A DNA stretch of 64,000 nucleotides from Niabella drilacis (GTDB lineage Bacteria > Bacteroidota > Bacteroidia > Chitinophagales > Chitinophagaceae), in the NCBI RefSeq assembly GCF_900101395.1, contig NZ_FMZO01000001.1, positions 506,600 through 570,599 on the forward strand. The letters are read 5' to 3'. Position 1 is the stretch's first letter. The number at the start of each line of letters is the position of its first letter. Below the pieces are notes generated by a model. The model had not been told where the DNA came from. It searched no databases and was given only the letters and a program-made list of their open reading frames with translations. Position numbers and translations under genes: made by a program. Positions 39,650 to 58,829 of the stretch are shown here, piece after piece.

Positions 39650-39650
39650 T

Positions 39651-41933
39651 ATGAAAACCCTGTCCTCCATAGAACTCCATTTGGATCAGGTAGCTCCCGG
39701 TCTGCGCCTGTACATCGATGCCCGCAAACCCGATACCCTGTTTGACGGGGAGGAGGACGCGGCCGAACATAACGAAGCGCGGTACCAGCTGATGGAGGGT
39801 TTTTTTTATGATTATGCGTTCAACCATCCCAATTACCAGTTGGGCGATGTGGGGGAGAACATCATCATCCCGCATAAAAGAAATACGCACACGGGTACGC
39901 TGGCGCCCAATATTTTTACCGGCACGCTCACCATTCCTATATTATACAATCACCAGCCGGAGCCGGTTACAAGCATCGAGCTGGAAGTACAATCCACCAA
40001 AACCAGCTACCGCAACGATTACCGGGATATGCTGGAGCTGATCACCGAAAAATGTACCGACCTGCTGTTGCAGTCCAACGCGCCGGCCGCGCATTATTTC
40101 GATATTGATTATACAAAAAACAGTCAGACCCTTTATCAAAAATTTGCCTTCATCAAATCGGTGATCGGTACGGACGAGTTTGCCGAGGCCATTCACCGCA
40201 TTGTTACGGCACCCGTTACCCAATGGGCAGACGCGCCGGAACCGCGGGATGTGCGCCAGCTGCGCCGTCTCTCCAATGCGCATGTAAAGGAATTATTAAA
40301 AGGCGGTAGTCCGGCCATCCTCCCGGAGGCATTAAAAAAAGCCGGGTTCCACAGCCTGCCCCGGCGCATTGCGGCCACGCGCAAAACAGACGCGGTGGAT
40401 ACACCGGAGAACCGTTTTGTAAAACATGCGCTGGAAGTGTTCTTACAATTTTGTACGGAAGTGCACAATGCCGCCGCCCCGCAAAGCAAGCTGTATAAGG
40501 AATCACTCTTGCTCATCCGCACGCTGGAAGGTTTTTTGCACCACAGCCTCTTTGCAAAAATTGCCGCACCCACCACGCTCCGGCTCAACAGCCCCGTATT
40601 GCAGCGCAAGGAGGGCTACCGGGAGGTGCTGCGCACCTGGCTGTTGTTTGATGCAGCAGCGCGACTGGTATGGACGGGCGGCGATGATGTGTACCAGGGT
40701 GGTAAAAAAGATGTGGCCACGCTGTATGAGTACTGGCTGTTCTTTAAGCTGCTGTCGCTCTTTCAATCCCTGTTCCAATTAAACGCGGAGGATATCAGTC
40801 AGCTTATCGAAAAAACGGAAGACGGGCTTAACCTGCGGCTCAAACAGGGCCGGCATTATCCCGTAAAAGGGGTGTACGATGCGGGCAGCCGTAAGCTGTC
40901 CATCCGCTTTAGTTATAACCGTTCTTTTAGCGGCAGCAAACCCTACCCGGATGCCGGCAGCTGGACTATGCACATGCGGCCGGACTATACGCTTTCCTTT
41001 TGGCCCGCGGGCATTACCGAGGCGGAGGCCGAGCTGCAGGAGCTCATCGTGCACATACATTTTGATGCCAAGTATAAAATTGATCACCTCAATAAATTTT
41101 TAGAGCCTTCCTCCAACGCCGCGCTGGCGCAGGAAAAAAAGGACAACAGCAAGGGCATTTATAAAAATGCGGACCTGCTTAAAATGCATGCCTATAAGGA
41201 TGCCATCCGGCGCACGGGCGGGGCCTATGTGCTGTACCCGGGGCATAAGGACCTTACCCGTAAGGGTTTTCATGAAATACTGCCCGGCCTGGGCGCCTTT
41301 CCCGTTCGGCCTTCCAAAACGGAGGATGGCACCGGCGCCTTAAAAGCCTTTATCCTCGCCATTATCGATCATTTTATCAACCGCAGTTCCCAGCGGGAAA
41401 AATGGGCCTACCATACCTTTGATGTATTTAAGCAAAAGCCGGGGGAAGACCATATACTCAACGAGCCCTTGCCGGAGCCCTATGGTGCCAACCGGGATCT
41501 GTTGCCGGACGATAGTTTTGTGCTCATCGGCTATTATAAATCGGCCGAACAGCTGGCCTGGATCCGGCAGCACCACCTGTACAATTTCAGGACCGGCAGC
41601 GGGGCAGGAGGCCTGGTGCTGGATGCGCCCACCGTAAGCGCCCGGTATTTATTATTGCATACCGCGGGGCAGCAACACTCCGGCGAGCTGTGGAAAATTG
41701 TAAGCAAGGGCCCGCAGATCTTTTCCCGGCAGGAGCTGCTGGACAAAAACTATCCTTCCCCCACGCAATCGCATTACCTCGTCATCCGCCTGGCGCCCGT
41801 GCCGGAGCCGGAGTTGCACCACCTGCAATGGCACTTTAAAAACCTGCCCAACTATACATCCGGCAGAGCCTCCGCGGTTCCCTTTACCGCCACCCTGGCG
41901 CAGTTCATGAAGGTGGTACAGGGCCGGGAGTAG
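39651..41933 (+). CDS. McrC-like DUF2357 / PD-(D/E)XK nuclease partner of McrB
   Basis: A 760-aa protein when started at the ATG 39651, one base after the McrB stop. The open frame extends 36 bp further upstream into mcrB, but this start is more natural. An N-terminal DUF2357-type region (about 70-330) precedes a C-terminal nuclease domain of the PDDEXK_7 kind, with catalytic HFDAKYK near 470-476 followed by a helix rich in Lys and Asp. Such pairs act like McrBC: the McrB ring translocates DNA and this subunit cuts. The operon arrangement supports that role. Confidence 0.85.
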   Translation: MKTLSSIELHLDQVAPGLRLYIDARKPDTLFDGEEDAAEHNEARYQLMEGFFYDYAFNHPNYQLGDVGENIIIPHKRNTHTGTLAPNIFTGTLTIPILYNHQPEPVTSIELEVQSTKTSYRNDYRDMLELITEKCTDLLLQSNAPAAHYFDIDYTKNSQTLYQKFAFIKSVIGTDEFAEAIHRIVTAPVTQWADAPEPRDVRQLRRLSNAHVKELLKGGSPAILPEALKKAGFHSLPRRIAATRKTDAVDTPENRFVKHALEVFLQFCTEVHNAAAPQSKLYKESLLLIRTLEGFLHHSLFAKIAAPTTLRLNSPVLQRKEGYREVLRTWLLFDAAARLVWTGGDDVYQGGKKDVATLYEYWLFFKLLSLFQSLFQLNAEDISQLIEKTEDGLNLRLKQGRHYPVKGVYDAGSRKLSIRFSYNRSFSGSKPYPDAGSWTMHMRPDYTLSFWPAGITEAEAELQELIVHIHFDAKYKIDHLNKFLEPSSNAALAQEKKDNSKGIYKNADLLKMHAYKDAIRRTGGAYVLYPGHKDLTRKGFHEILPGLGAFPVRPSKTEDGTGALKAFILAIIDHFINRSSQREKWAYHTFDVFKQKPGEDHILNEPLPEPYGANRDLLPDDSFVLIGYYKSAEQLAWIRQHHLYNFRTGSGAGGLVLDAPTVSARYLLLHTAGQQHSGELWKIVSKGPQIFSRQELLDKNYPSPTQSHYLVIRLAPVPEPELHHLQWHFKNLPNYTSGRASAVPFTATLAQFMKVVQGRE

Positions 41934-41967
41934 CGCTATCGGCATCACAGTAGCGGGCCCTTTTTTT

Positions 41968-42100
41968 TGGGCGTGCCCCCAGCCCGCCGGCACACCAGAC
42001 CCACACACGGCCGGGGTCGGGCTATTCGCTGCTACTCCGCCACAATACCCACCACACAAAGGCTTCAGCGGGGTATCCGCTGCTATCCCTCACGCGGGCA
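41968..42100 (-). repeat. Repeat C, copy 1 (inverted), left edge of the AT-rich operon
   Basis: Read on the minus strand, this shares GCGTGAGGGATAGCAGCGG, GATACCCCGCTGAAG, TGTGTGGTGGG, TGTGGCGGAGTAG and GGGGGCACGCCC with 54562-54747. It lacks an internal ~55-bp stretch of the other copy. It begins 35 bp after the mcrC-like gene. The remainder of the 561-bp gap (42100-42494) is AT-rich leader. It contains a TACATTTG that could serve as a -7 box near 42345 but no gene. Confidence 0.85.
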
Positions 42101-42494
42101 TCCGTGCTATAAACCCGGTTTGCGTTTAAAGAAGAATGCCCAATATCCTCCCTATGTCATTTCGACCGAGCGTAACGTAGTGAAGCAAGCGGAGAAATCT
42201 TTACGGTTTAACAAAAGGCAATAATAAACCCTTCTGACGTCACTTACGCGAATGTGAAGTATGAACATAATGAACCGTTGTTCAACGAATATCTGAAGTT
42301 TTACGGTTTTCCGTAGAAATAGTCTTTTATAGATTTTACATTTGACAAAACGGCAATTTTTAATGAAAAGTAAACGAAAAGCATGTAAATTAGCTTCGCA
42401 ACTGTTTAGCAAGCAGCCATTTGGAAAACAAATACTTATGTTGTGCTGGATAACTGCTTGGAAAGCTTAAAATATATTAGGGAGTGGTTTGAAA

Positions 42495-45296
42495 ATGAAC
42501 TATTTACAATGGAATAATGTAATTTCTGAATATTTTTTCAATTCTGCAAACGTAGGGAAATACATTCATTTGTACTTAACTAAGAATGATATTGTCAACA
42601 TTGCAAGACGATATTTTACAGATGGAACAGAAGAAAAAATTTGGACGGATTTCATCACTTCTATAAAACGTGGAATTCCAGGATCAACCGGAAACATAAT
42701 TGCAAAAGCAAAGTATGCCTACGACAAAAGAAATCTCGTAAAAATTGATTCTATAGAAATTAAGTATCCTCCCTATATTGCTTATCTTGTTTTTATTGTT
42801 CTTCCATTAATTGAAGGTGTTGAGAATACATACGGAACGAATAATTACTATGACAGATTGAACAGATTTCTCAGAAATAATCAAATAAATGAAATCATAG
42901 GTACTAACGATTTCCGCAATAACCAAATAAATTATCTATGGAGTGATTTAGGAAATTGGGCTAATTTCAAAAACAACGGAGATTTAGGATTATTTAAAGT
43001 TGTGCCATTTACAAATACCAATTGGATTTATGTTGGAAAAGTTTTCTCGCAATGCGTACTACCTCCAAAATTTTTAAACCGCCTACCAGAATTATTTGAA
43101 TACATCGGCTTAGTTCCCGATACTTTTTACGAAGACCGTTTTTTACAAGAAAAAATAAAAAACAGCAGAACGGATTTAATTCCTAAAAGCACATTAGACT
43201 TTTTGAAAAAAGATGATGAGTTGTCTAATTCTATCATTCAAACCATACAACGCCAATATAGGAAATGGACAGGCGAAACACACGAAGAAATTGAAGAAGG
43301 AACAACGCTACGAAAGAAACGGAATTACATCGTCGCCCCTTTGTTCCTTCAATTCAAAGTAAATACCAATGACGAAGAAATTAAGTTTTCGTACAGAATG
43401 TATTCTTCTAACGATTATCCGGAAGATTTGAAATTCGATGACTACGGAAATTTGTACGAAATAAACGGTTGGTCAAAGACGCTTCCGCTTAATTTTAAAG
43501 AAGGACTTGAACTCAAAGACAACTTCAATAAATGGATTGCAAAATTTCCTGACCGTGATGTAAGACTATTTGTAAGTGCAGGAACACAGCAGTTAAGTAA
43601 TGATTTTTGGATTGAAACAGATGTTCTTTCCAAAACAGACCGAATGTTTCTGTTATGCAAAAATGGAAAACAAAAAGCAATAGAAGATTGGGGAAAAACA
43701 TTCAGTAGTGGAAATTTTAAAAAGGAAGATTTTGAAGGTTTGCCTGAAAATTATTCTTTGTTTTGGTTTCGAAATCCCACACAAGGCCTTTCAGAAATTT
43801 CGATTCTTACACTCTATACCGAAAAACGAATTGAATTAGTTGGCGGACTAAAAGTGAGTTTCAGAACTTACACAAATGACTTTTTGCCGGAAGTTGAAAT
43901 TGTAAATTCAGACGGAAACGAAAAAGTTTATTTGCAATACAAAGGAACTGACGAAAAGATATTTCTTTCTAAAAAATCATCACTCAACAACCGTTGGTTA
44001 TTGCCCGGAAAAACGGCAATAGATGCCGATTTTTATATAAAAGCTGAGAATGAAAATTTTGCGGGAAATGAACTTGCATACAATCTTGCTTCATCTGATA
44101 ACACAGCGTTAAAAGTTGACGGTTCTAAATTGCCTAAACGAAATTCCTTTGGAAGAAATATTATAACTGATGCAGAGCAATATTGTTTAGGCAGCAACAT
44201 TGTTAATCCTACGAAACCAAGTAAAAGAGTTTTTTGCCCTTTAAGTTGGATTTTTGCTTCAACAAATCAAGAAACCACAACAACGGTTTCAACCGCTGTA
44301 TTTAATAACCATGGCGGAAATAACCTTTGTAATTTTCTTTCCTTGAAAGGCATGCTTACAACCGAAGAATTTTTTAAGGCTTTTGAATTTTACTTTTCAA
44401 AAGAGTTTTCAATTACAGAGAATATAAATCTTACCAAACTAAAACGAGCATCATTAAACTTTTATGATTTCATCGGAATACTTGACTACGACTATGAAAC
44501 AAAGAACATTGTTTTAAATCCGCCTCAATTTATTTTTATACCAACAACACAAGGAAGAAAAGTTTTGCTGATTGGTGCAAGAGATACGGCATTGATACAA
44601 ATAATCATTGAAAAAGCGCCAAGTCATAATTTGCAAGTTGAAATTACGAAACAATTTTCTTCCAATGAAAGATTGCTTTTGCCTGATGTAATAACCATAA
44701 AAGCATTTGGAACTTCAAGCGAAAATTACGGAGAAAGAAACTTAAAGGCGTTGGCAGACGAATTGCAGATAAAATTTTCAAATGATTACTTTCCTCAATT
44801 AGCACTTCAAGATTTTTCAGCAAACATTGCAGACTATGAAAGTACATTGCAAGAAACTAATGAAAACGATTATGGATGGGCAAGGTATGTTTTTAATCCT
44901 GATACTTTGAAATTCGAGAAAAGCGAAACTGCAAACTTTGATAAATCATTTTCATTACTTGAATACAAACTGAACGAATACACTTATCAGCACAAACTTT
45001 GGAAAGATAATAAATGCTACCAAGTTGATATGAATTGGGGAAGATTTGTAGCGTTAAAGCATTTCAATAAGAATGAAATTTTGTTTGATAATACAAGCCA
45101 AAAAGTCGCTATTCCTGTTGCAATGCCCTTGCCAAGGTTATTGTCAGAATCCATTATGTTGTTGAGCGGATTAGCACCAGATTTTAAAGAAATAAATGGC
45201 AAAAAATATAGAGTTTACGAAAATGTAATTGGCATTTTTACTCAAAATTTATTCAGATTAAAGTTAGGTCAAACAGCAATAAATACGATATTATGA
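42495..45296 (+). CDS. Large protein of unknown function, first gene of a candidate defence operon
   Basis: A 933-aa protein I do not recognise. The ATG at 42495 is preceded by GGGAGTGG about 10 bp upstream; a TTG two codons earlier is possible. There is no signal peptide, membrane segment or P-loop. It is rich in Asn, Lys, Phe and Tyr and strongly AT-biased, unlike the genes to its left. The C-terminal 90 residues are the most conserved-looking part (CYQVDMNWGRFVAL, KVAIPVAMPLPRLL). Its stop overlaps the helicase start (ATGA), so the two are coupled. Position and size recall the companion proteins of DruE-type helicases (such as DruH), but this is positional inference. Confidence 0.7.
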   Translation: MNYLQWNNVISEYFFNSANVGKYIHLYLTKNDIVNIARRYFTDGTEEKIWTDFITSIKRGIPGSTGNIIAKAKYAYDKRNLVKIDSIEIKYPPYIAYLVFIVLPLIEGVENTYGTNNYYDRLNRFLRNNQINEIIGTNDFRNNQINYLWSDLGNWANFKNNGDLGLFKVVPFTNTNWIYVGKVFSQCVLPPKFLNRLPELFEYIGLVPDTFYEDRFLQEKIKNSRTDLIPKSTLDFLKKDDELSNSIIQTIQRQYRKWTGETHEEIEEGTTLRKKRNYIVAPLFLQFKVNTNDEEIKFSYRMYSSNDYPEDLKFDDYGNLYEINGWSKTLPLNFKEGLELKDNFNKWIAKFPDRDVRLFVSAGTQQLSNDFWIETDVLSKTDRMFLLCKNGKQKAIEDWGKTFSSGNFKKEDFEGLPENYSLFWFRNPTQGLSEISILTLYTEKRIELVGGLKVSFRTYTNDFLPEVEIVNSDGNEKVYLQYKGTDEKIFLSKKSSLNNRWLLPGKTAIDADFYIKAENENFAGNELAYNLASSDNTALKVDGSKLPKRNSFGRNIITDAEQYCLGSNIVNPTKPSKRVFCPLSWIFASTNQETTTTVSTAVFNNHGGNNLCNFLSLKGMLTTEEFFKAFEFYFSKEFSITENINLTKLKRASLNFYDFIGILDYDYETKNIVLNPPQFIFIPTTQGRKVLLIGARDTALIQIIIEKAPSHNLQVEITKQFSSNERLLLPDVITIKAFGTSSENYGERNLKALADELQIKFSNDYFPQLALQDFSANIADYESTLQETNENDYGWARYVFNPDTLKFEKSETANFDKSFSLLEYKLNEYTYQHKLWKDNKCYQVDMNWGRFVALKHFNKNEILFDNTSQKVAIPVAMPLPRLLSESIMLLSGLAPDFKEINGKKYRVYENVIGIFTQNLFRLKLGQTAINTIL

Positions 45297-48200
45297 AAGA
45301 CCCAATCGGTTCATTTGAAAGCATAAAAGAAAATTTTATCCGCTATGTAAAAACAGCGTTCGGAACAAAGTTTGAAGGCGTTGAAAAAGAACGCTATGAT
45401 TTATTAAATTACGACAAGGTTCTTTATCGCAAACCGTGGATTGAGCCTTTACCAGATTATGTTTCAAGTGGCAAAAAAATAAGCGATATAACGGCAGAAG
45501 ATTTAGGAAATGCTTTAAGCGAAGCAGAAGCAAGCACTTTTAAAGGACTTGTAAACACAGGACTTGTTGGGGATTTTCCATTGCATTCGCATCAATCCGA
45601 AATGTTGAAACAAGCCTTACTCGGCAATAACTGTATCATTACTTCCGGCACTGGTTCGGGAAAAACAGAATCGTTTTTACTTCCATTGTTTGCTCAACTT
45701 TCAAAAGAACTTACTAATTGGCAAAAGCCAAATCAAAAATCAGCAAACATAAATACTTGGTGGCAAGAAGACGGTGGGCTTTCAGCAAGAGAAATTGTCA
45801 ATAGTTCAAATTATACATTGAGCGATGCGGTAAGACAACGCAACCACGAAACAAGAAAAGCCGGAGTTAGAGCCTTAATTCTTTATCCGATGAACGCTTT
45901 GGTGGAAGACCAAATGAGCCGTTTACGCAAAGCGTTAGATTCTGACGATACAAGAGATTGGTTAAGTGAAAACGCAAACGGTAATGCAATTTATTTTGGA
46001 CGGTATAACGGCAGTTCGCCTGTTGCCGGGGAACTGAAAAAAATAAAAGATGACGGCATATTAGCAATCAACACAAGAAAGGTAAATCAGCTTAAAGAGC
46101 AATTACAACAAATTGAAACCGACTCAACGCGTGTTGAACAATACATTCAACAAACAGGGAAATCAGGAAGTGACGCGAAAGATTTGAAATCATTTTTTCA
46201 ACGCTTAGATGGTGCAGAAATGAGAAGCCGGTTTGATATGCAAGTTGCACCACCCGACATTATGATTACCAATTATTCAATGTTGAGCATAATGCTAATG
46301 CGGGATATTGACACGGGAATTTTTAATGAAACAAAGCAATGGTTAGAAGAAAACGAAAATAATATTTTTCACTTAATCATTGACGAATTACACTTGTACA
46401 GAGGAACACAAGGAACAGAGGTTGCGTATTTGCTCAAATTGGTGCTTAACCGTTTAGGATTACACCCACATCACCCACAATTACGCATTCTTGCTTCAAG
46501 TGCTTCATTAGAAGCAGGGGACGAAGCAAGCAAAAATTTTGTGTGTGATTTTTTTGGAGTAAGCCACGACCACTTTAACCAAAAATTCAAAATCATTGAA
46601 GGGAAAAATAATCCGATTACCGCATTTCCTGAAAGCGGAACAAAACTTCCAATCAAAGCTTTCAAGGAAATTGCAGAAAAATTTTCAGAAGTAAAAGGAA
46701 ATATTGAAGACACGAGTTTCATTTCAACTTGTGAAAATGCAGCAACAGAACTTGCTGCGGCTTTTAGCATTGAACAAACCGAAAATGGAATCTCAAAATT
46801 ATTTTCAGTAATTACTGATCCAAATTTCCAACTGAAAGAACGGTTATTTTCACCTTGTCAAGATTACAAAGCTGTTTGTTCAATTCAGGCAAATGGAGAT
46901 GATATAAACGGAAAATATTTTGCTGAAACAATTTTTGAAACAACCGACAGTAAAGAAGATTTAGAAAACGCTTTGCGAGGTTTGTTGATTGCTAGAGCAA
47001 TGTTAGATGGGCCGCAATTCAAATCTGTTGCAGACAAAATTCCTGACGATAGAAAATTGCCACGCTTTAGATTCCATTATTTTTTCAGAAACATTGAGGG
47101 TGTTTGGGCTTCTGTAAAAGCCGATGATGTTGACACGAATTACAGCGATAATGAACGGACAACCGGAAAACTTTATTCAACTACACGGATAAATTCAGAA
47201 AAAGGGAACCGTGTATTAGAATTACTTTATTGTGATAATTGTGGAACAACATTGTTTGGCGGCAGCCGGTTAGTAACAAGAAATGAATCAGGGAATAATT
47301 CTTTTGAAATGCTTCCAATTAGTCCAAACATTGAAGGTATTCCTGAAAAAACACCTGCAAAATTGGTTGAAAAAAGAAGCTATCAAGAATACGCTGTATT
47401 TTGGGTTTGTGGCAACCAACCATTTACACCACACGATGCGGGTGCAGGAATTTCTCAAAACTATTGGCGACAACCTACTGTAAATGGTTTTAACCAAGGC
47501 GACTTTGAAGCAAATTGGATTCCTGCATCACTCAACTGCATTTCGGGAGATATTGATAATTCTCACAATAAAGCAACCGATGCAGAAACATCAGCACATT
47601 GGATAAAAGGATATTATTTCATAATAACTAACAATTCTAATCGTGATATTGCTTTACCAGATGCGAGTGGAAACATTTCCACAATAGAAACACACAAAGC
47701 ATTACCAAGTGTTTGTCCAAGTTGTGGAATAAATCATCAAAAAAGACAACAACGCTGGGATAAAAGCAAAACCTCTTCTATTCGTGGTTTCAGAACCGGT
47801 TTCGCTAAAACAACCCAAATGTTTGCAAAGGAATTGATGTATCAACTTCCGAGCAATGAAGCGGAAAGAAAATTAGTTGTATTTTCTGATAGCCGGGAAG
47901 ATGCGGCACAAATAGCAAACGGAATTGAACGCAATCATTTTTCTGATTTAATGCGTGAAATTTTAGTGAATGAATTACATTCAAACTTAATGTTCCGTTT
48001 TCAAATTGTGAGTGCTTTTGACGATGGAAATACCGCAAGACAACAAGAATTAAAACAACAATCGCAAACAATTTTTGATGAAATTGAATTCTTGGTTGAA
48101 AATTCAGGTTATACAGGAACAAACGCAAATCGTGTAAGAGAGAAACAAGAAGCAATTTCAAAACTAAACGAGATCCGTTTGCTTACGCTCAACATAAGAA

Positions 48201-51200
48201 GTTTAGTTGATATTACAAATTCTGTAAATCTTGCACCACTTGTTAAGCACTTTGTTGAATTAGGGATAAATCCGGGTGGTAACGATATTTCTTTACAAAC
48301 AAGATTATTGAACAGCAACTTTGTTCCTTGGTATGACCTTATTGATTTTACAAACTTCCAATGGGCAAACGGAGCAGACCAAACATATATCAACGATTTA
48401 AAAGAAGGTACTTTTAGTGAACTTGCTATAATGTTTTTCGGTTCGTTGTTTTATTCATTTGAATCTTCTGCATTGGGATATGTTTGTATAAATCCTGAAA
48501 TACAAGTTATCACAGACCAAGCAAGAGCAGTTGCCTTAGCGAAAGATGATTTTCTACAAATCGTAAATTCTTCAATCCGGATTTTAGGCGACAAGTATAA
48601 ACACAACAAAATTGAAGATGCCGATCCATTTAATTTTATTCAGTATAGTAATCTTCCCGAACAAGTAAAAAAATATATCAAAGCGGTTGCCGACAGATTT
48701 TCAAAGCAGGAAGCCCAAATTGGTGAAGCAGTTTTTAAAACACTTTCCGATAGCCGTTTAATAACCGGTGACAAAGGAATACAAATTGAAAATCTTTTTA
48801 TCAAAGTTGCGCAAGCAACTGATAAAGTTTGGACAAGCCAAAGAGGAAGCAGGCCGCATTTGCATTTTAGTGGCGGCATTTGCACACATTCTGTTACAGC
48901 ATTACAAACACCGCACAGCAAAATATGCGATGATATTTGGAAAGAAAATTATCTTTCGTACAATGCCATTAAACAACAACGTCCGCCAATCCGTTTGCAT
49001 TGCGAAGAACTTACAGGGCAAACAGACGACCAATTTGAAAGGCAAAGACATTTCAGAAATATCATTTTGCCCGATGAAGGCAACAAACAAGTAAAAACGA
49101 TTGACTTGTTAAGTGTAACAACAACGCTTGAAGTCGGAGTTGATATTGGGGCATTGCAAGCCGTGATGCTAGGAAATATGCCACCACAGCGTTTCAATTA
49201 TCAACAAAGAGTTGGTCGTGCAGGTCGTAGAGGACAAGCCTATTCTGTGATTTTGACTTTTTGCAGAGGTAGAAGCCACGATGAATTTTACTTCGCAAAT
49301 CCTCAAAAAATCACAGGCGATGCACCACCTACACCATTTTTGACAATGGGACAAGAACGTATTTTTAAACGCTTGCTTGCAAAAGAAATTTTACGCAGAG
49401 CATACGTTGAAAAACGTATTGATGTCACTTCTGACGAAAAGTCAAGTGTTCACGGAGAATTTGGTTCTATTGATAGTTGGAATTCTTATAAAATAGAAAT
49501 TTCAGATTGGATAAACAATAACAGAACTGCTATTGGACAAGCAGTTGATGCCTTGCTGACAGAACAACTAAAAAACAAAAGAGATGAATTTATCAATTGG
49601 GTTGCAGACATCACAACTGCAAATGGTTTGATTGAAAAAGCACAAAGCATTATTAACAACGAAGAAATTGCGACAAATGATATTTCTGAAAAATTTGCCG
49701 AAGGCGGTATTTTGCCAATGTTCGGGATGCCAACCACAGTTAAAAACTTGTATCATGGGATTAACAGAAAACTTGAACCGCTTTCAATAGACAGAGCGCA
49801 AGCAATGGCAATTTATGAATTTGCACCGGGAGCGCAGAAGACAAAAGACAAGGCAATTCATCAAGTAATTGGTTTTACAAGTGATTTCATCAATACACGC
49901 AGAAATGGAGTTCAAATTGTAACCAATGTTGAAACCGGTAATCAACTTCCGTTTTCATTAAACCGTTGGTTTGTGCGTTGCAGGGCTTGCGGATTTTTTG
50001 AAACGTATTCGGAAACAGAAAAAACAGACAAGGAAACCCGAAACGAATTTGACACTTGCCCGAATTGTGGCGAAGATAATCCTGACAAGTATCAGCGACC
50101 TTTTATGCTAAAATCACCAAGAGCATACAGAACAAACCTTTCGGCGGGTAGCGATACAAAAGATGATTCAGAATTTTTACTTTCTCGTCCGCCAATTTTC
50201 GCGGAAAAAACCGGTACAGCAAATACAGAAATAAAAATCAATGCTTCAATTTCTATCTCTGATAATGATGTTACTTGGCGTGTAAACACAAATTCTGATA
50301 GATTTTTTACAGGAAAACTTTACAATACAAACAACAAATTCCCTTTCAATCAAAACGGATTTTGGTTTAATAATCAATGGTTGTTGAATGATTTTTCAGG
50401 CAATACAAATGACAGCAACGGACATTCAATGTTTGTTCAACAAAACGCAACAAGTACAGAAGAGCAAATTGCATTAGCAAGCAATAAAAACACCGAGATA
50501 TTCAGAATTGCACCGTCAACTGTTCCTTTGGAACTTGACTTGAATATGTTTTTTAGTGAAACCGATTTACCACACGTTAAAGCACAAAGTAACGGAGTAC
50601 GTTCGGGATATTATTCAGCAGCGTTTTTACTGCAACGGATTTTAGCTGACAAACTTGACGTTGACCCAACGGAGATTGAAATTGCTGATATTTCAATGAA
50701 AATACTTGAAGACGGAACTAATAGGAGGATTGCGGAAATTATTTTGACTGATGAATTGCCAAATGGTTCTGGTTTTGTGAGATTTTTGTACGACAATTTC
50801 ACAAACCTGCTTTCAGAAGCAATAAATCCAAGTACCGCAAATAGCTATTTAGGGAAAATTCATTCGCAAACTCACCAAGAAAAATGTGATGATGCGTGTT
50901 ACGATTGCCTGAAGGTGTTCCGGAATATGAATTATCACAGCTTGCTTGATTGGCGTTTGGGCTTATCAATGCTTCGCGTAATGAGTGATTCAACTTTTGT
51001 TTGTGGCGCTGACGGAAATTTCAACTTTGTTGAAGTGCAAAATTGGCTTGATTTTGCAACAGAATTGAGAAATGGCTTTTCTCAAAGTTTTGGGTTCTCA
51101 AATGCAGCAGAAATAAATGGTTTGCCAATTATCAAGTGGGGAAGAAATCAACGAAATGTAATAATGATTGTTCACCCTTTTTGGAATATGAGAAATTTCA

Positions 51201-51340
51201 CGGAGGCAAATTGGTTGGCTGAAATCTATAATGAAATCAAAGAACATACTGAAAGTAATGGAGGAAAAATTAGCATAATAGACACATTCAACTTGCATCG
51301 CAGGCCGGGTTGGTGTTACGAAAGATTAATAACAAGATGA
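45293..51340 (+). CDS. Giant DEAD/DEAH helicase with DUF1998-type C-terminus (DruE/DrmA-like)
   Basis: A 2015-aa superfamily 2 helicase. The N-terminal block (SFESIKENFIRYVKTAFGTKF) is followed by Walker A GTGSGKT (119-125), LILYPMNALVEDQMSRL (about 195-211), the DEAH-box variant DELH (about 363-366), and helicase motif VI QRVGRAGRRG (about 1304). Zinc-knuckle-like pairs appear at CDNC (about 645), CPSC (about 806) and CRAC/CPNC (about 1561-1590). The DUF1998-type end contains CDDACYDCLKVFRNMNYHSLLDW (about 1864-1886, split CDDACYDCL and LDW). This design is known from DruE of Druantia and from DISARM and Dpd helicases. Size favours DruE. It is coupled by ATGA overlaps to genes on both sides and shares their AT-rich composition. 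Confidence 0.88.
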   Translation: MKDPIGSFESIKENFIRYVKTAFGTKFEGVEKERYDLLNYDKVLYRKPWIEPLPDYVSSGKKISDITAEDLGNALSEAEASTFKGLVNTGLVGDFPLHSHQSEMLKQALLGNNCIITSGTGSGKTESFLLPLFAQLSKELTNWQKPNQKSANINTWWQEDGGLSAREIVNSSNYTLSDAVRQRNHETRKAGVRALILYPMNALVEDQMSRLRKALDSDDTRDWLSENANGNAIYFGRYNGSSPVAGELKKIKDDGILAINTRKVNQLKEQLQQIETDSTRVEQYIQQTGKSGSDAKDLKSFFQRLDGAEMRSRFDMQVAPPDIMITNYSMLSIMLMRDIDTGIFNETKQWLEENENNIFHLIIDELHLYRGTQGTEVAYLLKLVLNRLGLHPHHPQLRILASSASLEAGDEASKNFVCDFFGVSHDHFNQKFKIIEGKNNPITAFPESGTKLPIKAFKEIAEKFSEVKGNIEDTSFISTCENAATELAAAFSIEQTENGISKLFSVITDPNFQLKERLFSPCQDYKAVCSIQANGDDINGKYFAETIFETTDSKEDLENALRGLLIARAMLDGPQFKSVADKIPDDRKLPRFRFHYFFRNIEGVWASVKADDVDTNYSDNERTTGKLYSTTRINSEKGNRVLELLYCDNCGTTLFGGSRLVTRNESGNNSFEMLPISPNIEGIPEKTPAKLVEKRSYQEYAVFWVCGNQPFTPHDAGAGISQNYWRQPTVNGFNQGDFEANWIPASLNCISGDIDNSHNKATDAETSAHWIKGYYFIITNNSNRDIALPDASGNISTIETHKALPSVCPSCGINHQKRQQRWDKSKTSSIRGFRTGFAKTTQMFAKELMYQLPSNEAERKLVVFSDSREDAAQIANGIERNHFSDLMREILVNELHSNLMFRFQIVSAFDDGNTARQQELKQQSQTIFDEIEFLVENSGYTGTNANRVREKQEAISKLNEIRLLTLNIRSLVDITNSVNLAPLVKHFVELGINPGGNDISLQTRLLNSNFVPWYDLIDFTNFQWANGADQTYINDLKEGTFSELAIMFFGSLFYSFESSALGYVCINPEIQVITDQARAVALAKDDFLQIVNSSIRILGDKYKHNKIEDADPFNFIQYSNLPEQVKKYIKAVADRFSKQEAQIGEAVFKTLSDSRLITGDKGIQIENLFIKVAQATDKVWTSQRGSRPHLHFSGGICTHSVTALQTPHSKICDDIWKENYLSYNAIKQQRPPIRLHCEELTGQTDDQFERQRHFRNIILPDEGNKQVKTIDLLSVTTTLEVGVDIGALQAVMLGNMPPQRFNYQQRVGRAGRRGQAYSVILTFCRGRSHDEFYFANPQKITGDAPPTPFLTMGQERIFKRLLAKEILRRAYVEKRIDVTSDEKSSVHGEFGSIDSWNSYKIEISDWINNNRTAIGQAVDALLTEQLKNKRDEFINWVADITTANGLIEKAQSIINNEEIATNDISEKFAEGGILPMFGMPTTVKNLYHGINRKLEPLSIDRAQAMAIYEFAPGAQKTKDKAIHQVIGFTSDFINTRRNGVQIVTNVETGNQLPFSLNRWFVRCRACGFFETYSETEKTDKETRNEFDTCPNCGEDNPDKYQRPFMLKSPRAYRTNLSAGSDTKDDSEFLLSRPPIFAEKTGTANTEIKINASISISDNDVTWRVNTNSDRFFTGKLYNTNNKFPFNQNGFWFNNQWLLNDFSGNTNDSNGHSMFVQQNATSTEEQIALASNKNTEIFRIAPSTVPLELDLNMFFSETDLPHVKAQSNGVRSGYYSAAFLLQRILADKLDVDPTEIEIADISMKILEDGTNRRIAEIILTDELPNGSGFVRFLYDNFTNLLSEAINPSTANSYLGKIHSQTHQEKCDDACYDCLKVFRNMNYHSLLDWRLGLSMLRVMSDSTFVCGADGNFNFVEVQNWLDFATELRNGFSQSFGFSNAAEINGLPIIKWGRNQRNVIMIVHPFWNMRNFTEANWLAEIYNEIKEHTESNGGKISIIDTFNLHRRPGWCYERLITR

Positions 51341-52425
51341 TAAATAAAATTGGAGATATAAATTTCAAGGAAATCAAACGGATTTCGCCAGGCCAATTTT
51401 ATTCAATGAAAAATTGTGCTTACAAATCGTTGTTGGCAGAAGCGTTTGACAAAAAGCCGCTACTTCCTCTTTCGGCAAGCGCCTATTTTGGAACAGTACT
51501 GCACAACATGCTTGAACTGATGGTAAAAGGAATTGTAGAAAGCGAAGATGATTTTAATGCTGAATTTGAAAAACAAATAAAAACACTTGAAGATGATTTG
51601 CAAAATAAAGGTTTTGGCTTTTTCGTTCCACTAAAAATAAAGTTGAAGAATTTTGGATTAAAGAAAATTCAATTAAAAAAACATTTACGAAGCAAACCTG
51701 AAAAACCGATAATTTCAAGCGATGTAAGATTTGATTCTGAAAAATGGTTTGAATCACAAGATAAATTGATTGGCGGAAAAGTTGATTTGATAATTGAAAA
51801 TGGAAACAATATTGAAATTATTGACTTTAAAACCGGAGCAATTGCACAAGATTGTTTAGATGATGAAGGCGCAATTCTTTCTGATGTTAAAAATGAATAC
51901 AAGGAACAACTCAAGCTTTACGCTTACTTATATTTTGAGAACACAAAAAAATTTCCAACAAGTTTAAGTTTGGTCGACTTAGCAAAGCAAAAGTTTTCTG
52001 TTGAGTTTTCAGAAGAAGAATGTAAAGCAATTTTTGACGAGGCAAAAAATCTATTAAAAACAACGAATGATTGCGTAAATACAAAATCATTTTCAGCAAT
52101 TCCTGAAGAAGAAAATTGCAGGTATTGCTTGTACAGACCAGCTTGTTCTTTCTTTCAGGAAAAACTCGAAACAGATTTTACTTATAATGATGTCGCAGGC
52201 AAAATTAATGATGTCAGAAAATTTCAGAATGGAAACGTAAGTGTGTTTTTACAAAATGGGGAACAGCGTTTGACCATAAAAAATTTCTCTGGTGAAAAAT
52301 TTGACGCACTTAATAATGTCAAAAATAAAAGAATCAGTATTTACAATTTACGAAAAGAGGCAATAGATTTTGTATACGCAGCTACCAGTACAACAGTGAT
52401 TTATGAACAAGATAATACCATTTGA
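51337..52425 (+). CDS. RecB/Cas4-like PD-(D/E)XK nuclease with Fe-S cysteines and OB-like tail
   Basis: A 362-aa nuclease. The ATG at 51337 overlaps the helicase stop (ATGA); the frame is open to 51310 but this start is preferred. Catalytic residues of the RecB family are seen: His56, Asp150 in GGKVDLI, Asp163 and Lys165 in EIIDFKTG, and motif QLKLYAY (191-197). Cys27 with Cys261, Cys264 and Cys270 (CRYCLYRPAC) form the four-cysteine set of a Fe-S nuclease like AddB or Cas4. Residues about 285-345 form a short beta-rich segment that looks like an OB fold for nucleic acid. It probably works with the large helicase. Confidence 0.85.
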   Translation: MINKIGDINFKEIKRISPGQFYSMKNCAYKSLLAEAFDKKPLLPLSASAYFGTVLHNMLELMVKGIVESEDDFNAEFEKQIKTLEDDLQNKGFGFFVPLKIKLKNFGLKKIQLKKHLRSKPEKPIISSDVRFDSEKWFESQDKLIGGKVDLIIENGNNIEIIDFKTGAIAQDCLDDEGAILSDVKNEYKEQLKLYAYLYFENTKKFPTSLSLVDLAKQKFSVEFSEEECKAIFDEAKNLLKTTNDCVNTKSFSAIPEEENCRYCLYRPACSFFQEKLETDFTYNDVAGKINDVRKFQNGNVSVFLQNGEQRLTIKNFSGEKFDALNNVKNKRISIYNLRKEAIDFVYAATSTTVIYEQDNTI

Positions 52426-52963
52426 ATTATTAAAAAATGCAGATTTGATAAAAGGAGCAACTTATAAAGGTGGCGCAGCTCCTAATTTATCAAGTGAGCC
52501 CATATCCAAGCTCTTACCAGTAGGGAATCAAGCTGGCATTCGCTTTTCGGGCACTGCTGCTACCCCCGAATTGGTAGTACTTTATACCACATTGAAAGAC
52601 AAAGACTGGCCTGATGAGGTAATAGATAATAAACTAATTTATTTTGGAGATAATAAGTCTCCCGGGAAAGAAATACACGATTTGCCCGGTAACCAGGCAT
52701 TAAGATCCATATTTAACAATTTTTATTTAAAAGGAGAATATCCACTTATTTTGCTGTTTTCCAAGGGTAATGAAGGGTTTGACCGGGTATTCCAAGGTGT
52801 ATTAGCTCCTGGTTATGATGGATTGAATGAGATGGAAGATTTAGTAGCAGTTTGGAAAACAAGAGGAGGTATACGCTTTCAAAATTATAAAGCAGTATTT
52901 ACAATACTGCCTATTGAGGTTTTAAATAGAAAAAATATAGAATCAGTAAAGCATGCCAAATAA
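52403..52963 (+). CDS. Stand-alone AspBHI-type N-terminal (modified-DNA reader) domain
   Basis: A 186-aa protein overlapping the nuclease gene by 23 bp and the methyltransferase gene by 11 bp. Blocks LIKGATYKGG, AGIRFSGTA, LVVLYTTLKDKDWPDEV, YFGDNKSPGKEIHD and FQNYKAVFTILP match the N-terminal SRA-like domain of AspBHI-type modification-dependent restriction enzymes. That domain recognises methylated cytosine. The C-terminal Mrr-like nuclease domain of such enzymes is absent: the chain ends about 15 residues after the reader fold, and no PD-(D/E)XK motif is visible. It may serve as a specificity subunit for another nuclease in the operon. The family call is from pattern memory. Confidence 0.7.
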   Translation: MNKIIPFELLKNADLIKGATYKGGAAPNLSSEPISKLLPVGNQAGIRFSGTAATPELVVLYTTLKDKDWPDEVIDNKLIYFGDNKSPGKEIHDLPGNQALRSIFNNFYLKGEYPLILLFSKGNEGFDRVFQGVLAPGYDGLNEMEDLVAVWKTRGGIRFQNYKAVFTILPIEVLNRKNIESVKHAK

Positions 52964-54083
52964 GTTACAGTTACATAATCTGCCGGTTCTTTCATTTTTT
53001 TCTGGTGGTGGCTTCCTGGATATGGGATTTACTGCTGCTGGGTTTAATATTCTGTGGACGAATGAAATTGATAAGCAATTTTCTGTTTTTTACCGTGAAG
53101 GCATAACTGCTTGGAAGCAAAAAAGAGGCCTTTTGAAAAGGGAAGAGGAATGTGCAATAAGTAATCAAAATTCAATAAAAGACATTCAAAATAATACTAT
53201 CCTTGAAGAAGCTTTCAAAGAAAAACCGCACCATTTTGGAATAATTGGAGGGCCGCCATGCCAGGATTTTAGTATTAATGGTAATTTGAACGGTTTTCAA
53301 GGTGATAGAGGCTCGCTGACAGATGCATACCTTTATAAAATCCTGGAACTGCAACCGTCCTTTTTTATTATGGAAAATGTAACCGGGTTAATAAAGGTTA
53401 AAAAGAATGCCAAACATTTTTTTGAGCTTCTTGACGTGATGAAGGATGATTTTTTGATAGACTGGAAAGTATTAAATAGCCTGGAATTTGGTGTACCTCA
53501 ATCGCGCGAACGGATTTTTGTTGTAGGTATAAATAAAAGTAAATTCAACGTAAGTGAATTTGAGCATACAAGCGATTGGTTTCCTTTTGAAAAATATGCG
53601 GGCCATGCTGGTGCCCAAACGGGCTACAAATGGCCAGAAGCTAATACCTTTGGTATTACACCTGTACAGCCTTCTGGTATTCCGGTGGGGTTGTGTGTTG
53701 AATCTTGTTTGGTCAGCGAGGATAAGGAAGGAGTGATTGCAAATGCAAATGAATATTTTAAATTGCACGGAGATAAACGCCACCTTAGATCAATTAAGGA
53801 AGGGGAGACGAACCGGCCATCTTTTAAACGCCTGCATAGATTCAAATACAGTCCTACAGCTTGCTATGGTAATAATGAAGTGCACCTGCACCCCTATCAA
53901 CACCGTAGACTATCTGTTAGAGAAACATTGAGGATTCAAGGAGTTGACGATTCGTATGTAATTACTACTCCAGGCTATTTATCAAAAAAGTTTAAAATGA
54001 TAGGAAATGGAGTTCCTGTGCCTATGGCTGAAGCATTAGGAAAATCAGTATGGGATTTTATGAAAAAGCTAGCTTTAAAATAA
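52953..54083 (+). CDS. DNA cytosine-C5 methyltransferase
   Basis: A 376-aa cytosine-5 DNA methyltransferase with all main motifs. Motif I is FFSGGGFLDMGF (about 15-26), motif IV GGPPCQDFS with catalytic Cys103, and motif VI MENVTG (about 139). Motif VIII is QSRERIFVVGI, motif IX RLSVRETLRIQG, and motif X MIGNGVPVPMAEALG. A target-recognition region lies between VIII and IX. It overlaps the reader gene by 11 bp and is followed by vsr. The recognition sequence cannot be predicted from here. In Druantia type II a cytosine methylase (DruM) belongs to the system, which makes its position behind a DruE-like helicase notable. Confidence 0.95.
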   Translation: MPNKLQLHNLPVLSFFSGGGFLDMGFTAAGFNILWTNEIDKQFSVFYREGITAWKQKRGLLKREEECAISNQNSIKDIQNNTILEEAFKEKPHHFGIIGGPPCQDFSINGNLNGFQGDRGSLTDAYLYKILELQPSFFIMENVTGLIKVKKNAKHFFELLDVMKDDFLIDWKVLNSLEFGVPQSRERIFVVGINKSKFNVSEFEHTSDWFPFEKYAGHAGAQTGYKWPEANTFGITPVQPSGIPVGLCVESCLVSEDKEGVIANANEYFKLHGDKRHLRSIKEGETNRPSFKRLHRFKYSPTACYGNNEVHLHPYQHRRLSVRETLRIQGVDDSYVITTPGYLSKKFKMIGNGVPVPMAEALGKSVWDFMKKLALK

Positions 54084-54091
54084 GATTTCGG

Positions 54092-54502
54092 ATGGCAGAT
54101 ATATGGTCAAAGGAGAAGCGGAGTGAAGTAATGAGCAAAATCAGGTCGAAGGATACTAAACCTGAAATTATGCTCCGCAAAGCTCTTTTTGCATTAGGCT
54201 ACCGCTACCGCATTCATAATAACAAACTGCCTGGAAAACCGGATATTGTATTGCCCAAATACAAAACAGCCATCTTCGTACATGGTTGTTTTTGGCATTA
54301 TCATGCCGATTGCCGAGAAGGCAGAATACCAAATACCAATTCGACATTCTGGAAAGAAAAACTATTAAAGAATATTAGCAGGGATCAAAAACACCAAGAA
54401 ACATTGGCGCAACTTGGCTGGGAAGTGTTAGTTTGCTGGGAATGTGAAATTGAGAAAGATTTAGAAGCTGTTATCAAAGGAATTGTCAGGGCTTTCTTGT
54501 AA
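54092..54502 (+). CDS. vsr: Very short patch repair endonuclease
   Basis: A 136-aa Vsr endonuclease started at the ATG 54092, 8 bp after the methyltransferase stop; the open frame begins earlier, inside that gene. It shows the Vsr hallmarks: MSKIRSKDTKPE, GKPDIVLPKYKTAIFVHGC with Asp51, and the FWHYHADC zinc/metal region (67-74). Vsr nicks at T:G mismatches left by deamination of 5-methylcytosine, so it fits directly behind a cytosine methyltransferase. It also has the general PD-(D/E)XK-like nuclease fold. Last gene of the six-gene operon. Confidence 0.95.
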   Translation: MADIWSKEKRSEVMSKIRSKDTKPEIMLRKALFALGYRYRIHNNKLPGKPDIVLPKYKTAIFVHGCFWHYHADCREGRIPNTNSTFWKEKLLKNISRDQKHQETLAQLGWEVLVCWECEIEKDLEAVIKGIVRAFL

Positions 54503-54561: not shown

Positions 54562-54747
54562 CGCGTGAGGGATAGCAGCGGATACCCCGCTGAAGGTATT
54601 GTGTGGTGGGCGTTGTGGCGGAGTAGGAGCGATTATTCGCCATCTTTTTTATCATTTTTTAATGGCGCTCATGAAGGCTTCGCCGTTGCCCGACCGCTGC
54701 CATGCATCTGGCCCTTGTGTGTTGGCAGGGCAGGGGGCACGCCCTAA
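54562..54747 (+). repeat. Repeat C, copy 2, right edge of the AT-rich operon
   Basis: This copy is inverted relative to the one at 41968-42100 and runs from GCGTGAGGGATAGCAGCGG to GGGGGCACGCCC. It starts 60 bp after the vsr stop and touches the 3' end of the convergent XRE gene. It contains the internal block GATTATTCGCCATC and TTAATGGCGC that is missing in copy 1 but present in the third copy (56871-57415). Confidence 0.88.
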
Positions 54748-54751
54748 AAAA

Positions 54752-55150
54752 TTACTTTGCTGGTATTAGTTTTTTTAATTCGGCCATCATCTCGTCTTTC
54801 TCTTTCATCATTCTTTCATACAGCGCAATCTTTTCTTCGTGCAGTTGGAGAATTTTATCAATTGGATGCACATTCATTGTGCCACAATTAAAAGCATAAT
54901 CACCAAATGTATTTGCTATTATATTCATGGCCTGTTCCTCATCGAAATTCTGAAACGCTTCCACGGGTATTTTTAATGCAGCGGAGATCTGTTGCAGCAG
55001 GGGCACATCAATGGTTTCTTTGGTTTCCAGTATGGATATTTTTTTCTGGTTCCAGTCATCGCCCAGCTCATAAGCCAGGGCATCCTGCTTGATGCCCAGC
55101 ATTTCGCGGAAACGCTTTACATTGCGGCCTTCGTGTATCTTTTTCTCCAT
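54752..55150 (-). CDS. XRE-family transcriptional regulator
   Basis: A 132-aa protein when started at the ATG 55150 (MEKKIHEGRNVKRF); a start at 55168 adds six residues. An XRE helix-turn-helix covers about 10-65 (LGIKQDALAYELG, QKKISILETKE). A middle region and a C-terminal coiled-coil-like helix (LHEEKIALYERMMKEKDEMMAELKKL) follow and may mediate dimerisation. It is convergent to the vsr operon and divergent from the next gene. Two 11-bp direct repeats spaced 21 bp in the divergent gap could be its operator. Confidence 0.85.
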   Translation of the reverse strand: MEKKIHEGRNVKRFREMLGIKQDALAYELGDDWNQKKISILETKETIDVPLLQQISAALKIPVEAFQNFDEEQAMNIIANTFGDYAFNCGTMNVHPIDKILQLHEEKIALYERMMKEKDEMMAELKKLIPAK

Positions 55151-55220
55151 AATCGTTGTATTTATCAATGGTTCAAATTTAGGCTTTTACGCTCAATAAG
55201 CCACCTGTATAAAGATAGCT

Positions 55221-55252
55221 AAAATATCCGGCAAATGGCATAAAATATCCGG
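55221..55252. promoter_or_regulatory. Tandem direct repeat, candidate XRE operator
   Basis: AAAATATCCGG occurs at 55221-55231 and again at 55242-55252, a period of 21 bp or two helical turns. It is followed by the hairpin ATCCCCTTCGGGGAT ahead of a TTACTTTG box. It lies between the divergent XRE gene and the 55327 gene, where a repressor would bind both promoters. Confidence 0.5.
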
Positions 55253-57271: not shown

Positions 57272-57509
57272 GATAGCTATCGGGATGGCGGAGTAGCAGC
57301 GATTATTCGCATCTTTTTTGTTGTTTTTTAATGGCGCCCATGAGGGCTTCGCCGTTGCCCGACCGCTGCCGTGCGTCTGCCCATTGCAGCGCTGGCAGGA
57401 CAGGGGGCACGCCCAAATAAAAAATAACCATGATAACAGTCTACCCCCAGACATTTTTGATAGGATATGCCAGAGCAGCGACCCTCAAGCCTTCGTTGTT
57501 GTGGTTTTG

Positions 57510-58343: not shown

Positions 58344-58829
58344 ATGGAAACAGGGGCAATCGTTATTTACCAAACCGCAGACGGGCAAACATCTATTGAT
58401 GTAAAGCTGGAACAGGAAACCATTTGGCTGACGCAGAAACAAATAGCGGAACTATTTAATACTCAACGTCCTGCAATTACAAAACATCTGTCAAATATCT
58501 TTAACTCTGGTGAACTCAGTACAGATTCAGTTAGTTCCATTTTGGAACATACTACCCTGGACGGGAAAAAATACAAAACAAAATTTTATAACCTGGATGT
58601 CATATTATCAGTAGGCTACCGTGTTAACTCAAAAAATGCAACGCAGTTCCGCATCTGGGCCAACAGGATCCTTAAGGAGTGCCTGGTAAAAGGCTATGCC
58701 ATCAATGAGAAGCGATTAGAGGAACAAAGGCATCGCCCTCTTTCTGTTTTAGTCGGATTCCAGCTTTCTGCCGCAATGTGGGCAGTATGTAAATGCTTCA
58801 TCCAGGCGGGCATTACATCCCTGGCATAA
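58344..58829 (+). pseudogene. RhuM-family protein, C-terminally truncated
   Basis: The first ~130 residues are a RhuM-family N-terminus (IVIYQTADGQTSIDVKLEQE, ETIWLTQKQIAELF with a winged-helix-like repressor pattern, FRIWANRILKECLVKGYAINEKRLEEQ). A full RhuM protein is about 330 aa. After residue 130 the frame runs into antisense of the helicase 3' end, and the last ~30 residues are not RhuM. The break lies between about 58735 and 58749. A second, shorter RhuM scrap lies on the far side of the helicase gene. Confidence 0.8.

Follow-up and report, generated by a model that had tools for sequence, protein, structure and literature searches.

Among described Druantia defence systems, type IV is given in the accessible part of the PADLOC paper (PMC8565338) as DruE together with DruF and DruL, without the DruM and DruG of type II, and type II is set out as DruMFGE in the available text of a second source (PMC13316683). 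For type III, the portion consulted of a third (PMC13192584) proposes DruH as the likely sensor and DruE as a helicase-nuclease effector acting on DNA that contains single-stranded parts. A six-gene operon of the bacterium Niabella drilacis combines features of these types. It lies in a window of 64,000 nucleotides (NCBI RefSeq assembly GCF_900101395.1, contig NZ_FMZO01000001.1, positions 506,600 to 570,599), which is the whole stretch analysed and to which all coordinates refer, in a genome of 6.1 Mb in 45 contigs. Judged by its gene content, the operon is a Druantia variant between PADLOC types II and IV, with a core that is already known, and not a new system. It is very probably a complete, horizontally acquired Druantia of a Bacteroidota lineage, with a sensor, motor and nuclease core, and the initial impression that modules of two kinds are joined here, one of helicase and nuclease and one for modification and reading, is upheld. 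Its genes are as follows.

42495 to 45296, forward strand: gene 1, druFL, 933 amino acids from an ATG start, a fusion of DruF (residues 1-572) and DruL (residues 610-904).
45293 to 51340, forward strand: gene 2, druE, 2015 amino acids, overlapping gene 1 by 4 bp, a YprA/DUF1998 superfamily 2 helicase.
51337 to 52425, forward strand: gene 3, druK, 362 amino acids from an ATG start, overlapping gene 2 by 4 bp, a PD-(D/E)xK nuclease.
52403 to 52963, forward strand: gene 4, the probable solo reader, 186 amino acids, overlapping gene 3 by 23 bp, an SRA-like AspBHI_N domain.
52953 to 54083, forward strand: gene 5, druM, 376 amino acids, overlapping gene 4 by 11 bp, a cytosine-5 DNA methyltransferase.
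54092 to 54502, forward strand: gene 6, vsr, 136 amino acids from an ATG start, beginning 8 bp after gene 5, a very-short-patch-repair endonuclease.

This co-directional arrangement, with its four overlaps and closing gap, had been described by the first-pass annotation and is borne out by the open reading frames (ORFs) and junction sequences. A TTG 6 bp upstream of ATG 42495 is also a possible start for gene 1, gene 3 read from an upstream TTG would encode 371 amino acids, and the start of gene 6 was set at ATG 54092 rather than at the longer ORF start, 54050, because relatives align from residue 15-17. The guanine-plus-cytosine (GC) content is 0.33-0.38 in the operon, against 0.49-0.55 in the 6 kb upstream and 0.40-0.48 downstream (2-kb windows), so that the AT-rich composition from which transfer had been suspected is real, and the defence hotspot in which the operon lies, described below, agrees with it. 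A scan for promoters and terminators returned 48 promoter-like sites against 38.3 expected and 16 terminator-like sites against 9.8, and was not used as evidence.

The identity of the genes was established by searches of the six proteins against PADLOC, Pfam and NCBIfam, the PADLOC lists for genes 2 and 5 being the best 25 matches. Gene 1, at first called unknown, is identified by PADLOC as a DruF-DruL fusion (DruF4, 248 bits; DruL4, 167 bits, over the residues given above), with no match in Pfam. Gene 2, anticipated as a Druantia-like DUF1998 helicase, is the full-length DruE that marks Druantia of any type: the best model, DruE2, scores 1917 bits over residues 1-2013 of 2015 and DruE4 scores 1712 bits, Pfam finds DEAD, Helicase_C and MZB domains, and Walker A, the DELH box and motif VI are conserved across 26 aligned sequences. 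Gene 3, rightly foreseen as a RecB-like nuclease, matches DruK at 82 bits, Cas4 at 41 bits and Pfam PDDEXK_1, and also has a C-terminal tail. Its H55, D149, D162, K164 and Q190, together with C26, C260, C263 and C269 (alignment numbering), are invariant in 22 of 22 aligned proteins, a RecB/Cas4-like four-cysteine pattern that we take, by comparison with Cas4/AddB-type nucleases, to be of the iron-sulphur type; no match to DruK was found among PDB sequences. The reader domain, methyltransferase and Vsr of the earlier description likewise recur in Pfam as RE_AspBHI_N, DNA_methylase and Vsr. Gene 4 matches PF18062 (RE_AspBHI_N) at 143 bits, with PADLOC matching only the N-terminal part of mREase_II; gene 5 matches DruM2 (445 bits), PF00145 (185 bits) and TIGR00675 (159 bits), has the C5-methylase motifs and is the only PF00145 match in its genome; and gene 6 matches PF03852 and TIGR00632 (154 bits) and aligns with the Vsr of 10 other loci.

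PADLOC matches DruF/DruL, DruE, DruK and DruM among these proteins, and the set is neither canonical type IV nor canonical type II. The operon is like type IV in having DruE, DruF and DruL, in being helicase-centred and in lacking a listed DruG match, and unlike it in the F-L fusion, the near-constant DruK and DruM, and the accessory Vsr and reader; because DruM is present, it is not filed as canonical type IV. It shares with type II the DruM cytosine methylase, DruF and a DruE whose best model is DruE2, but has DruL and DruK, and DruG is not among the PADLOC matches listed for the six proteins. As in type III, a YprA helicase accompanies a large partner protein, but DruFL stands in place of DruH, no PLD nuclease domain was matched in DruE by Pfam, and cutting is probably the work of DruK. 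In the accessible text of the CoCoNuT paper (PMC11090510), Druantia is mentioned as type III only. The first-pass annotation had proposed an undescribed system; as a whole it is not one, PADLOC models existing for genes 1, 2, 3 and 5 and type IV being published, but the combination with DruM, Vsr and a solo reader was not found in the literature searched, which did not cover most subscription papers.

The operon is widely shared. A contig scan with the gene 1 alignment, covering Bacteroidota and relatives, gave 26 loci, 24 of them with room beyond DruE (L032 and L041 end inside DruE and were dropped); L038, L041 and L049 lie on contigs that a whole-genome search had also yielded, as L016, L017 and L020. 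DruM follows the operon core in all 24 and often overlaps DruK, and Vsr lies beside the operon in nine (on the other strand in L033), a fragment being present in L025 in addition. A solo reader occurs in two (L030 and L047) besides the window, and a full-length AspBHI_N+Mrr_cat protein in one (L038, analysed as L016). The association of genes 1-3 with genes 4-6 that the earlier reading implied therefore holds for the methylase, partly for Vsr and weakly for the solo reader. F and L are fused in 25 of the 26 loci and separate in L046. To complement this gene-1-based scan, 395 genomes of the phylum were searched with DruE (E<=1e-100). Six other genomes were found, three of them (G058, G188 and G356) already known from gene 1; F and L, fused or apart, and DruK are present in all six, a methylase beside DruK in five, and Vsr in three, the methylase of G437 being only 30% identical to that of the window. 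FL-E-K-M is a recurring operon, beyond chance.

Comparison of the aligned sequences indicates that, within this operon, DruM is exchanged between loci independently of DruE and DruK. Pairwise identities among the 21 loci with all four genes correlate at 0.98 for E-K and 0.94 for FL-E, and at 0.61 for E-M and 0.51 for FL-M. The window and L024 are 86% identical in FL and E and 52% in DruM; L043 and L016 are 54% identical in E and 80% in DruM. Classes in the DruM tree cut across DruE clades, with class A comprising 13 rows, class B the window with L033, L035, L025 and L037, class C three rows and class D four, and with L040 and L018 apart. In approximately unbiased (AU) tests, the DruM data reject three DruE clades (p-AU 0.003, 2e-69 and 1e-8) and the DruE data reject four class B rows as a clade (2e-5), p values that are indicative, the groups having been chosen after the trees were seen. 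L038 was omitted from the trees as lying on the same contig as L016, L025 from the DruE tree because its DruE is split in two ORFs, and L046 and L019, with separate F and L, from the FL identity matrix; L041 equals L017, and L049 equals L020. FL too is exchanged at times, identity to the window being 77% in E and 42% in FL for L045, and 75% and 31% for G665 (L094:3384-15003).

One segment of DruM is held nearly constant through these exchanges. Residues 291-325, immediately ahead of motif IX, show 83-97% identity in comparisons of the window with 10 Druantia-locus rows, with L018 apart at 74%, and stay at 83-97% between classes whose N-terminal parts share 44-52%; identity in the preceding stretch, 206-290, falls to 18-55% (16 rows compared), and 25 of the 35 residues are invariant in 19 DruMs aligned without L018. 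In structures of M.HhaI the equivalent stretch holds recognition contacts, but residues 291-325 also extend into motif IX, whose conservation has other causes. Three plasmid methylases are 69-77% identical over the segment. Non-self methylase matches at E<=1e-60 in the 395 genomes number five, four in Druantia loci and the fifth in a restriction-modification pair on a 4.6-kb contig. Among plasmids, four non-Druantia records match (E<=1e-30, 35-39% identity), three beside restriction enzymes of the Cfr10I/Bse634I family, which cuts RCCGGY, and a fourth that is unannotated; three phage records also match (35-36% identity). From the relatives beside Cfr10I-family enzymes, we infer a core target that is conserved across DruMs and predicted to be of CCGG type. 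Such a constant site would explain why exchanges of DruM have left no segment of FL, E or K that convincingly follows its class.

How these parts might work together can be outlined. DruFL would detect infection and license DruE, a YprA-family motor that would load on DNA with single-stranded parts and move along it, and DruK would cut the DNA. DruM would methylate cytosines of the host genome at a family-wide site, thereby marking self, and Vsr would repair the T:G mismatches that arise from deaminated 5-methylcytosine. The reader, where present, would bind methylated sites or phage hydroxymethylated sites and so tune where the motor acts. Self-marking by DruM is held with a little less than even confidence. 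The fuller proposal is a methylation-gated Druantia, in which self would be marked by a methylase that is exchangeable but conserved in specificity, the mark being respected by DruE-DruK, and in which, in three operons, a stand-alone SRA reader, equivalent to the DNA-reading half of a restriction enzyme, would direct the helicase-nuclease towards methylated or hydroxymethylated DNA or keep it away; it is speculative, and we regard it as rather unlikely in its entirety.

The sensing and cutting steps call for comment. DruFL is a predicted sensor or regulator by analogy with DruH of type III, and its AlphaFold2 model is good (predicted local distance difference test score, pLDDT, 87; predicted template modelling score, pTM, 0.83). 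Several of the top weak PDB fold matches of this model are immunoglobulin-like or related beta-sandwich chains, at E 0.3 and above, and were not used as evidence. A DruF-like protein at L015:3763-8759, which over its N-terminal 560 residues shares 83% identity with that of the window, directly follows AbiEi and AbiEii genes, with no DruE match on the 20-kb stretch of L015 around it. The model of the C-terminal region of DruE (pLDDT 79) matches MrfA (6znp; E 2e-6) and has a weak match (E 0.12) to the catalytic domain of the homing nuclease I-Bth0305I, and the position of the putative Vsr catalytic aspartate, located visually by its resemblance to the motif, is occupied by I, V or A in the 26 aligned rows. 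This Vsr-like domain looks inactivated, in line with a preprint on YprA helicases (PMC12458937), the available part of which describes DruE of types I and II as ending in predicted inactivated Vsr domains. It is because this domain seems to have lost its catalytic residues that DruK is proposed to do the cutting, as the presumed partner of DruE.

The strongest competitor to self-marking by DruM is that two independent defences stand side by side, a Druantia (FL-E-K) and a cassette resembling a restriction-modification system that shares its transcript, DruM then guarding against a past or present restriction enzyme and not against Druantia; we consider this a real possibility, if a somewhat improbable one. 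The neighbours of DruM favour it as much as they favour self-marking: in the 10 of 24 loci in which ORFs 3' of DruM were scanned, a nuclease-like gene was found in four (L038, L031, L033 and L049), and an N6/N4 DNA methylase lies downstream of DruM in one (L029). The other six scanned loci are without a nuclease-like neighbour, however, and DruM is retained in all 24 loci, including those that have lost K, such as L026, where both ends of DruK remain in pieces (L026:18840-18984) with the middle gone while DruM is open. The frequent overlap of DruM with DruK and the invariance within residues 291-325 also speak against mere adjacency. Outside the 24 loci, L018 carries a type II restriction endonuclease, with no match in the PDB; there, a methylase and this enzyme (L018:2968-5212) replace DruM in a Druantia operon, and a pair 60% and 72% identical to them (L056:1934-4160) lies on a short contig without any other match to the operon.

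Gene 4 is probably a small protein that reads methylated DNA, as its sequence suggests. It matches the SRA-like domains of LpnPI (4rzl, 155 bits) and AspBHI (4oc8, 118 bits), but where members of the MspJI family combine such a domain with a PD-(D/E)xK domain, gene 4 consists of the SRA-like domain only. In LpnPI, according to the accessible text of PMC4499157, the residues needed are W69, D71, Y82, Y83, G84, D85, K87 and N63 of the pocket and N27, N42, R98 and R137 of the loops, and an alanine mutant of R98 is nearly inactive. Gene 4 shares most of this 5-methylcytosine pocket, keeping the equivalents of W69, D71, Y82, G84, D85 and K87 as well as of N27 and N42, with Y83 changed to F and N63 to T, and differs from LpnPI and AspBHI in its missing nuclease domain and in a loop 6C shorter by two residues, with R98 lost. 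An alternative is that the solo reader is a decaying restriction enzyme of AspBHI type, functionless after the loss of its nuclease domain, which we hold to be unlikely. In favour of decay, a full-length AspBHI_N+Mrr_cat protein lies beside DruM in L016, and all three solo readers have the shortened loop. Against decay, the L030 and L047 copies, with 62% and 73% identity to the one in the window, are open and lie, like it, between K and M, their ends overlapping or nearly touching the adjoining genes, and most pocket residues are conserved.

Several observations weigh against the proposed mode of action, or against parts of it. The two loop 6C residues absent from gene 4 include the R98 equivalent, and no arginine aligns to R137, one arginine lying two residues further on; because both are needed in LpnPI, binding of methylated DNA by gene 4 is not assured. 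Each of the three solo readers occurs with a different class of DruM (B, A and C). Neither PDB nor BFVD yields a fold match to the DruFL model at E<=0.001, so that the sensor role of DruFL rests on analogy. DruK is missing from L026, L037 and L040, hence present in 21 of the 24 loci, and is therefore not strictly needed or is replaced. One genome (G571) carries FL-E-K without DruM, and two cyanobacterial plasmids have separate F, L and E with no match to the DruK or DruM of the window, one of them having an annotated PD-(D/E)XK protein some 4 kb downstream of DruE; a Druantia core can thus stand without self-marking. An effector matched to its site should, unless the site is constant, contain a segment that tracks DruM class, and none in FL, E or K does so convincingly in 161 windows scanned: the best (partial correlation r 0.45 against a permutation 95% level of 0.44) is a near-invariant helicase stretch and is not relied on. 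Finally, experimental work on DruM, DruK or DruL was not found in the literature searched.

Membership of DISARM (DrmA with DrmB and DrmC plus a methylase) or of Dpd (defined by 7-deazapurine genes), which a DUF1998/YprA helicase with a methylase and matches of gene 2 to DpdJ (67 bits) and DrmA (32 bits) might suggest, is rejected as extremely improbable, since the DruE2 and DruE4 models span the whole gene 2 protein at 1712-1917 bits, the DruF/DruL fusion adjoins it, no 7-deazapurine gene is among the six, and the matches listed for the other genes include no Drm (DrmB and DrmC among them) or Dpd partner bar generic DrmMII methylase matches.

The position of the operon in the chromosome can be seen by comparison with four sister species of the genus, which share the same McrBC-like block (80-95% DNA identity; window 37784-42142), followed by other cargo. 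The flanking genes, both outside the system, are the following.

37778 to 41933, forward strand: an McrB-like AAA protein with a DUF2357/PDDEXK_7 partner, present at the site in sister species.
54752 to 55168, reverse strand: a small helix-turn-helix-like protein, at the site in three sister species.

The helix-turn-helix gene (window 54784-55226) follows the cargo in three of the four species, the cargo being Gabija in G732, a DRT/UG9 set in G737 and a type I restriction-modification system in G743 (L080, L081 and L082), and Druantia fills the slot between about 42.2 and 54.6 kb in the window. The site is a defence hotspot, which fits the shift in composition and bears indirectly on the predicted anti-phage role of the operon. 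On the left flank, the McrB-like gene has a 79-bit match to McrB, and a conflict is possible should this relative of McrBC cleave DNA containing 5-methylcytosine, the same genome carrying its own cytosine methylase. On the right-hand side of the operon lie the two copies of a 77-nt direct repeat (88%), at 54641-54717 and 57310-57386, and short matches to this part recur at the site in sister species. A short RhuM-like gene (58344-58829) overlaps a UvrD/Rep-type helicase gene (58749-60923) on the opposite strand, both named by eye.

Modules for modification and reading are already known to accompany ATP-driven restriction systems; what is new here is to find one on a Druantia. A paper of 2008 (in the accessible text of PMC2292703) reported MORC-type ATPases in operons that also encode cytosine methylases and Vsr nucleases, and MORC/paraMORC restriction-modification operons and MZA-like loci resemble the present operon in placing ATP-driven proteins with cytosine methylase and Vsr genes. 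An AspBHI-type restriction enzyme likewise lies beside a methylase in L022, where a full-length relative stands beside a GHKL ATPase, methylases and Vsr, and in L078, where another adjoins a cytosine methylase and MzaE; a further full-length relative is found near a methylase on a Priestia plasmid. Unlike the Druantia operon, these loci have different motors, and the reader is nuclease-fused there and solo here. Plasmid relatives of the reader (14 records) are annotated as restriction or HNH endonuclease in eight cases and as a hypothetical protein in one, the remaining five being unannotated under the match.

BREX and DISARM are thought to be modification-gated. A statement of DruM function, or of how Druantia spares its host, was not found in the accessible portions of the literature searched. 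The lineage described here is a testable case of the role of DruM, having a methylase in 24 of 24 FL-first operons that is swapped without a convincing matching change in the effector and that keeps a conserved recognition-type segment, and some of its operons add a solo methyl-reader to that case. It also names a subtype that published definitions split between types II and IV. Resolving the role of DruM would show whether Druantia can be modification-gated like BREX and DISARM, and, if the methylation-gated reading is true, the operon of N. drilacis would be a split, ATP-powered, methyl-reading restriction system.

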